49,349 nucleotides of DNA from Bacillota bacterium (GTDB taxonomy: Bacteria; Bacillota; Limnochordia; DTU080). Within the stretch, counting starts at the first letter, position 1. Each line of letters opens with the position of its first letter. The position numbers and the translations under genes were made by a program. Shown piece after piece: positions 31,781-37,208 of the stretch. The stretch covers positions 1 to 49,349 of the forward strand of contig DULU01000014.1 in NCBI GenBank assembly GCA_012840225.1. Reading direction: 5' to 3'. A model generated the notes under the pieces. It was not told the origin of the DNA, ran no database searches, and was given only the letters and a program-made list of their open reading frames with translations.

Positions 31781-32353
31781 TCACTTCACCCGCACTACGA
31801 TTTTGTCGAAATAGGCTGCGGTACGCTTGACCTCTCTTTCGGTGGATTGGACCAAAGAGAGGCGGAGTTGCTTGCAGCCTTTGGGGGGCACGAATTCGAT
31901 CTCGTGGTACTGCCACTCGCCGGGCTCGAAATCCGTGGCAAAATGATGCTTGTTAAACACCGGGTAAAAGCGCGGCTCGGTGTTGTCCACCACCGACATG
32001 CGGATGCCGCCGTCGGTGACATACACCCAGTAGCCGACGATATACGTCGTGCCTTCCTGGACCGGCACGCCCACCGAGTTGAGCACCTGAGCGCCGCTCT
32101 TGGCGGAAGTCACCACGTGGAGGGCCGTCGCTCCTTCATATTTGATATCGCCGGCCGGCCCGATCAGATCGTAATTGTTGGCCCGCGGCGTCCATCCTTC
32201 GGGGGAAGTGGCTTTGGCATCGATCTGCTTCCATTTGCCTTCAAAATCGCCATATGCGAAGAGGTTTTCCTCCGCCAAGCCCGCACCGGCAGCGAATATC
32301 ACCAACACTGCCAGCAGGGCGAAAGCTTTGGCCATCGACAAAAGGCGCTTCAT
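31781..32353 (-). CDS. Secreted stand-alone carbohydrate-binding-like protein
   Basis: A 190-residue protein with a signal peptide (cleavage near GAGLA-EE) followed by one jelly-roll-like domain ([18 protein letters not shown], then [24 protein letters not shown] and [28 protein letters not shown]). The mature part is by eye about three-quarters identical to residues 52-212 of the lyase at 33651-37208, so it is a detached copy of that domain. It may bind the polysaccharide or help capture oligosaccharides. The open frame extends to 32446, but ATG 32353 has AAGGAGGG upstream and begins the signal peptide. It lies 14 bases after the first binding-protein gene. Confidence 0.75.
   Translation of the reverse strand: [190 protein letters not shown]
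31784..32266 (-). repeat. Duplicated binding-domain DNA, copy 1 (partner 36573-37055)
   Basis: The region encoding the mature domain of the stand-alone protein is repeated, same strand, in the 5' part of the lyase gene. Stretches such as gcccaccgagttgagcacct (near 32071 and 36856) are identical. The two copies are about 4.8 kb apart and could recombine. Confidence 0.75.
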
Positions 32354-32367
32354 GATCTTTCCCTCCT

Positions 32368-36600: not shown

Positions 36601-37208
36601 GCTTCGGTGCGCTCCACTACCCGCTCGGTGGATTGTACCAAAGAGAGGCGAAGTTCCCGGCAGCCTTCCGGCGGCACAAACTCGATCTCATGGTACTGCC
36701 ACTCGCCCGGCTTAAAGTCCTCGGCAAAATGATGCTTGTTGAACTTGGGATAAAACCGCGGCTCGGTATTGTCCACCACGGACATGCGGATGCCGCCATC
36801 CGTGACATATACCCAATAACCGACAACATAAACCGCCCCTTGCCTGACCGGCACGCCCACCGAGTTGAGCACCTGAGCGCCGCTCTTGGCGGAGGTGACG
36901 AGGTGCAGAGCGGCAGTGCCTGCATATTTTGGATCGGTGGAACGGGCTATCAGATCGTAGTTGTTGGTGCGCGGCGTCCATCCCTGGGGCACATTGGCTT
37001 TAGCATTGATCTGCCGCCAGGGGCCTTCAAAATCGCCGTATGCAAACAGGTTCCCTGCCGCCAAGGCCATACCACTTCCTATAGCCGCCGCCGTGAGCAG
37101 TGCGAGCGTTAGCATAATCATGAATATGAGCATGCCCAAAGACCTCCGCGCCGGTGACCTATAATTTATAACCTTTGCCGGCAGCCGGCCGGCTCTCCTT
37201 CTCTTCAC
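33651..37208 (-). CDS. Secreted heparinase II/III-type polysaccharide lyase with N-terminal binding domain
   Basis: An 1185-residue exported enzyme. Order: hydrophobic export signal at about 25-51; carbohydrate-binding-like jelly roll at 52-212; Ala/Thr/Gly repeat linker at 213-258; a DUF4962-like region from about 262 with the helical toroid ([14 protein letters not shown]); and the heparinase II/III domain with [26 protein letters not shown] and [12 protein letters not shown], which carry the conserved His and Tyr of these lyases. Near residue 1045 a second Gly/Thr/Asp repeat linker precedes a final beta domain. It should cleave a uronate-containing polymer by beta-elimination; substrate not predictable. 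It starts at GTG behind AGGAG, 14 bases after the hydrolase stop. Confidence 0.85.
   Translation of the reverse strand: [1185 protein letters not shown]
34024..34095 (-). repeat. 12-bp tandem repeats in the lyase C-terminal linker
   Basis: Several units of ggtgccggtgtc and variants (plus-strand reading) encode [23 protein letters not shown] in the lyase. The frame is kept. The linker separates the catalytic toroid/beta region from the last domain. Confidence 0.8.
36461..36515 (-). repeat. 12-bp tandem repeats in the lyase N-terminal linker
   Basis: Units of ctgtcgctgcac (plus-strand reading) with diverged neighbours encode the [18 protein letters not shown]-type linker between the binding-like domain and the DUF4962-like region. 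Confidence 0.8.
36573..37055 (-). repeat. Duplicated binding-domain DNA, copy 2 (partner 31784-32266)
   Basis: This part of the lyase gene encodes the domain that is also present as a free-standing secreted protein downstream. Both copies are in the same orientation, and identity is patchy but includes several stretches of more than 20 identical bases. Confidence 0.75.

Follow-up and report, generated by a model that had tools for sequence, protein, structure and literature searches.

The window, that is the whole stretch of 49,349 nucleotides analysed here (Bacillota, Limnochordia; GenBank assembly GCA_012840225.1, contig DULU01000014.1), lies on contig C4 of its genome, G000. Its minus strand encodes an exported polysaccharide lyase and, past it, a small exported protein, here called the solo, which resembles the N-terminal carbohydrate-binding module (CBM) of that lyase. 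In the direction of transcription, the features are:

38240-39454, minus strand: M14-type zinc peptidase homolog, a conserved neighbour and probable first gene of the operon
37223-38239, minus strand: alpha/beta hydrolase, weakly glucuronoyl-esterase-like (the esterase), a conserved neighbour
33651-37208, minus strand: PL15-like lyase, 1185 aa, exported, with N-terminal CBM, Ala/Thr linker, DUF4962 and Hepar_II_III_C
36573-37055, minus strand: CBM at the N-terminus of the lyase (residues ~52-212), with 79% identity to the solo
32368-33624, minus strand: SBP1, SBP_bac_1 binding protein without a lipobox and without a nearby permease partner
31781-32353, minus strand: solo CBM gene, 190 aa, exported, signal peptide ~1-27, CBM ~29-190
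31695-31728, minus strand: GC-rich hairpin, GGCCGCCCCG...CGGGGCGGTC, 3' of the solo
31659-31687, minus strand: promoter-like site TTGACA-17-TATCAT ahead of SBP2, a consensus match alone
30320-31594, minus strand: SBP2, SBP_bac_1 binding protein, 186 bp past the solo, with its own promoter-like site
29399-30127, minus strand: short-chain dehydrogenase
27849-29321, minus strand: GH88-like protein, a distant relative of unsaturated glucuronyl hydrolases (E 3.5e-10; below the Pfam cut-off)

The M14 homolog, esterase, lyase, SBP1 and solo genes follow one another with gaps of 0-26 bp, and the solo, placed between two SBP_bac_1 binding-protein genes as the earlier note had described, probably closes the operon. 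A ribosome-binding site, AAAGGAGGG, lies immediately 5' of the solo ATG and is abutted by the stop codon of SBP1. The hairpin 3' of the solo lacks a T-run and is weak (z -1.75); it marks a possible end of the operon. The signal peptide of the solo was judged by eye to be of Sec type I. Inspection of the signal peptides of the solo and the lyase found a lipobox in neither, and no surface anchor was identified for either protein. Elsewhere on the minus strand of the window, a NamZ exo-muramidase gene adjoins one for a BadF/BcrA-type ATPase family protein (14252-16482), a pair with a probable role in peptidoglycan sugar recycling, and a GH106-like rhamnosidase of 1010 aa is encoded at 16575-19607, ~12 kb from the solo.

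Residues 30-188 of the solo align with residues 53-211 of the lyase without gaps, with 79% identity over 159 residues (E = 7e-92), which bears out the likeness first noticed by eye between the mature solo and lyase residues 52-212. A whole-genome search showed that these are the sole two copies in the 3.55-Mb genome. The DNA of the mature parts is likewise 79% identical. It includes one identical run of 48 bp, which is longer than expected by codon shuffling (p = 0.002) and also when amino-acid identity is held fixed (p = 0.009); outside this run the divergence is fairly even.

Although the earlier note recognised no named CBM family, Pfam CBM_4_9 (PF02018) matches both copies above its gathering cut-off of 25.9 bits, the solo with 36.8 bits (E 6e-9) and the lyase copy by a marginal pass (26.1 bits). 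A structure model of the mature domain, built on an alignment of 19 related modules, had a mean pLDDT of 93 and a pTM of 0.88. It replaced a poor first model (pLDDT 59) made from five sequences with the signal peptide kept. The nearest solved folds are CBM16, CBM4-2, the CBM70 of pneumococcal hyaluronate lyase, a porphyran-binding CBM and CBM22, and the model is a beta-sandwich with a Foldseek E of 3e-8 against CBM16 and TM scores of 0.58-0.74 against CBM4/16. Profile search matched the same module types (2zex, E 2.5e-13; 4d0q, E 5e-10), while a profile of five sequences gave nothing significant against the PDB, and neither NCBIfam nor PADLOC was informative on the solo. The structure prediction and fold search that the earlier note had proposed thus returned a CBM fold, and no non-carbohydrate identity emerged. 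Taken together, the Pfam match, the fold neighbours and the profile agreement identify a carbohydrate-binding-type module by fold. The solo is predicted to be a CBM4/16/22-like beta-sandwich module, and from the fold we infer that it binds glycan. With Pfam CBM_4_9 and the solved modules (C. polysaccharolyticus CBM16, Rhodothermus marinus xylanase CBM4-2, pneumococcal CBM70 and CBM22) the solo/lyase module shares fold, domain length and the N-terminal position on a secreted polysaccharidase. It differs from them in sequence (13-19% identity), in occurring additionally as a free protein, and in not being placed in a single CAZy family.

The combination of DUF4962 and Hepar_II_III_C, both of which Pfam finds in the lyase, is the architecture of PL15 enzymes (PMC7904915). 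The closest solved chains are those of the oligo-alginate lyase Atu3025 (3a0o, E 3e-59) and of an exolytic heparinase (6lja, E 1e-52). His560, Tyr614 and His770 of the lyase align with His311, Tyr365 and His531 of Atu3025, the residues being taken from PMC7904915 and PMC11921355 and their roles from the latter; against BIexoHep (6lja), H560 and H770 match H337 and H555, and the tyrosine is one column off. By alignment, then, the PL15 active-site residues are retained. Since PL15 relatives of the alginate and heparin types score equally well, and the GH88-like and short-chain dehydrogenase neighbours give no decision, the predicted substrate would be either alginate-like or glycosaminoglycan-like. 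The lyase thus resembles the PL15 exolyases Atu3025 and BIexoHep in DUF4962, the heparinase II/III C-terminal domain and the His/Tyr/His positions, and differs from them by its additional N-terminal CBM and linkers. A second Hepar_II_III_C protein of 630 aa, with no DUF4962 match, is encoded on the plus strand of the window at 43449-45341 and is followed by a Lar_N/DUF362 protein. Paralogous lyases of ~904-914 aa adjoin a binding-protein gene at G000:C109 (6534-10823) and, in a related genome, at G002:C134 (3463-7535); neither has a CBM match or a solo.

The locus recurs in G002, which belongs to another genus of the same family. Its contig C201 carries the solo, SBP1 and the 3' part of the lyase gene, and contig C216 the 5' part with the CBM, the esterase and the M14 homolog. 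As the ends of the two contigs overlap by 296 bp at 98%, they very probably form one locus, and the order M14, esterase, CBM-lyase, SBP1, solo is then common to the window and G002. Identities between the two genomes are 63% for SBP1, 67% for the esterase, 72% for the M14 homolog and 67% for the N-terminal part of the lyase. Neither CBM copy was found in G001, a further member of the family, and a sample of 398 genomes of the phylum held no copy except in the window's own genome. Genome-contig and viral-contig collections queried with the solo alone returned no relative. An alignment-based scan returned the sister MAG and, at low identity, one Paenibacillus and one Armatimonadetes protein. Among the genomes searched, only two carry this CBM subfamily.

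Free modules are numerous in G002, which encodes ~15 solo CBM-like proteins, all exported and 179-222 aa long. On contig C33, a solo adjoins a BD-FAE-type esterase that bears a close copy of the module (77% over the CBM), and on C11 another adjoins a DUF4962 protein with a module copy (75% over 181 residues, signal peptide included); both lie directly upstream of their enzymes. C7 and C48 each carry tandem solos (70% and 67%). Since the modules of C33 and C11 are of other subfamilies, the lineage has repeatedly duplicated an N-terminal CBM to give a free protein. A survey for solo copies in related loci, suggested earlier as a check, therefore succeeded at the orthologous G002 locus and at two solo-enzyme pairs. 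The C33 region (3041-11132), in which a solo CBM and a binding protein lie beside chondroitinase-B-type (PL6-like) and beta-helix proteins, has the same gene logic with a different class of lyase. The part of the literature that we searched gave no matching description of stand-alone CBMs encoded with lyases.

How the two copies came to be so alike can be approached from the two genera. Solo and lyase CBM are 79% identical within the window and 70% within G002, whereas across genera the solos share 57% and the lyase CBMs 63%. Of the informative residues in a four-way comparison, 18 unite the two copies of each genome, and 0 unite solo with solo and lyase CBM with lyase CBM. Among trees that had the C33 paralog as outgroup, the one grouping by genome was best and the by-gene (orthology) tree was rejected (55 lnL worse, AU p 7e-51); a tree with C33 inside the G002 pair was not rejected (p 0.06). 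The copies would therefore either have been homogenised by gene conversion or have been duplicated twice into the same slot. Two independent duplications are a possibility to which we give well under an even chance: two genomes do not separate the histories, solo duplications are frequent in the lineage, and divergence is fairly even apart from the one 48-bp run, but both solos fill the same slot behind SBP1, past the lyase gene, while the other two G002 duplicates lie directly upstream of their enzyme instead. Synteny thus favours homogenisation by putative gene conversion. Either history suggests that the copies share one ligand. Between genera, first and second codon positions are conserved and third positions are near chance, which indicates that the solo is under purifying selection.

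The earlier note proposed a surface or periplasmic capture protein working with the lyase and an importer. The CBM fold agrees with capture, but the importer does not: a domain search found no permease inside the window, contig C4 carries 0 of the 12 BPD_transp_1 permease-domain matches of the genome, and neither binding protein has a linked CUT1 permease. For lack of a permease, we dropped the idea that the solo belongs to an ABC importer encoded nearby. Against these 12 matches stand 139 matches to SBP_bac_1 (some of them split genes), of which at most three lie, by position, within 5 kb of a permease (on C12, C51 and C101). SBP1 and SBP2, like nearly all binding proteins of this genome, are orphans. 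The sole CUT1-like permease genes recognised are on C51 (1207-12900), in the same run as a 1055-aa protein with an SBP domain, a DUF5696 protein and an NHL/Yip1 protein; this locus is a candidate hub transporter. From gene order and domains, C101 looks like a polyamine-type system and C12 and C39 like peptide-type ones. Counted with stricter cut-offs than in G000, the surplus of binding proteins over permeases recurs in the related genomes G001 (at least 110 vs 16), G002 (at least 110 vs 19) and G003 (104 vs 30), and is not seen in G005 (87 vs 108), G008 (32 vs 114) or G019 (41 vs 133). This surplus, possibly the more surprising feature of the lineage, suggests that its sugar transport relies on binding proteins that greatly outnumber the permeases. 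We found no matching description of orphan SBP_bac_1 expansions in the portion of the literature covered.

A surface location of the solo also fares poorly, as neither copy has a lipobox or an identified anchor. Limnochordia are diderm (PMC11456536). A lipobox is missing from 18 of the 20 binding proteins examined, as expected for the periplasm, and together these points make the surface doubtful and, should the organism be a diderm member of the Bacillota, periplasm or release likelier.

We propose that the solo, a duplicate of the lyase's N-terminal module, is a free exported protein whose gene has been retained at the end of the operon. Its most likely ligand is the uronate-containing glycan to which the CBM of the lyase itself would bind. 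The solo would concentrate glycan chains or oligosaccharides in the vicinity of the lyase and of SBP1, with which it is co-translated, and SBP1 could pass the products to a permease encoded elsewhere. This reading, in which the solo binds the glycan of the lyase and makes it locally more abundant for both lyase and SBP1, is one we hold with some, though not strong, confidence. We infer the capture role, the shared ligand and the hand-over to SBP1 and a distant permease; of these, the shared ligand draws support from the homogenised sequences. In favour of the proposal, the pairing with a binding protein recurs in G002, where the solos of C33 and C187, like that of C201, stand directly behind a same-strand SBP gene; against it, such pairing is the exception, with three of the ~15 solos.

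The conserved slot directly behind SBP1, and a lyase devoid of any anchor motif, would also suit an adaptor or anchor whose target is a partner protein (SBP1 or the lyase) or a glycan of the cell envelope rather than a food polysaccharide, and the fold class, further down the ranking, does include domains that bind other ligands. We think this unlikely, since the best fold and profile matches are to modules with which polysaccharidases bind glycans, and the lyase carries the same module as a fused domain, for which substrate binding is the usual role. A shared ligand, as the homogenised sequence suggests, would also suit a sensor, or a dosage or competition device that tunes or limits attachment of the lyase to the polymer, but no regulatory partner was recognised beside the solo and we regard such a role as improbable. 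Least probable of all, in our estimate, is a functionless by-product of partial gene duplication: partial 5' duplications do recur in the lineage (C11, C33 and the tandem solos of C7 and C48), but this solo is intact, has a ribosome-binding site and signal peptide, occupies the same slot in two genera and is under purifying selection.

We therefore retain capture of the lyase's glycan as the preferred role of the solo. CBMs have been studied mainly as parts of enzymes, and a free twin matched to an enzyme module in two genera offers a natural test of what an unattached CBM does, as the solo/lyase pair does for ligand sharing inside one polysaccharide locus. A wider proposal, which we advance as speculative and rather doubtful, is that detached, gene-converted CBM copies sharing the ligand of their enzyme, together with a large set of binding proteins that lack permeases of their own and depend on one or two hub permeases, constitute a capture system. 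The large sets of orphan TctC binding proteins (Bug) of Bordetella likewise have no linked membrane parts (PMC11452294), but they belong to another transporter class, while the present lineage has SBP_bac_1 proteins, several of them beside polysaccharide enzymes. The surface glycan-binding proteins of Bacteroidota polysaccharide loci are alike in that a non-catalytic glycan binder, here a predicted one, is encoded with a lyase, and one such structure (7kwc) appeared in the fold search of the weaker model (pLDDT 59). They differ in that the solo has no lipoprotein signal, that SusC/SusD were not recognised in the window, and that the organism is one of the Bacillota. If the wider proposal is true, the system of detached CBMs and orphan binding proteins would be a Bacillota counterpart to the SusD and surface glycan-binding protein systems.
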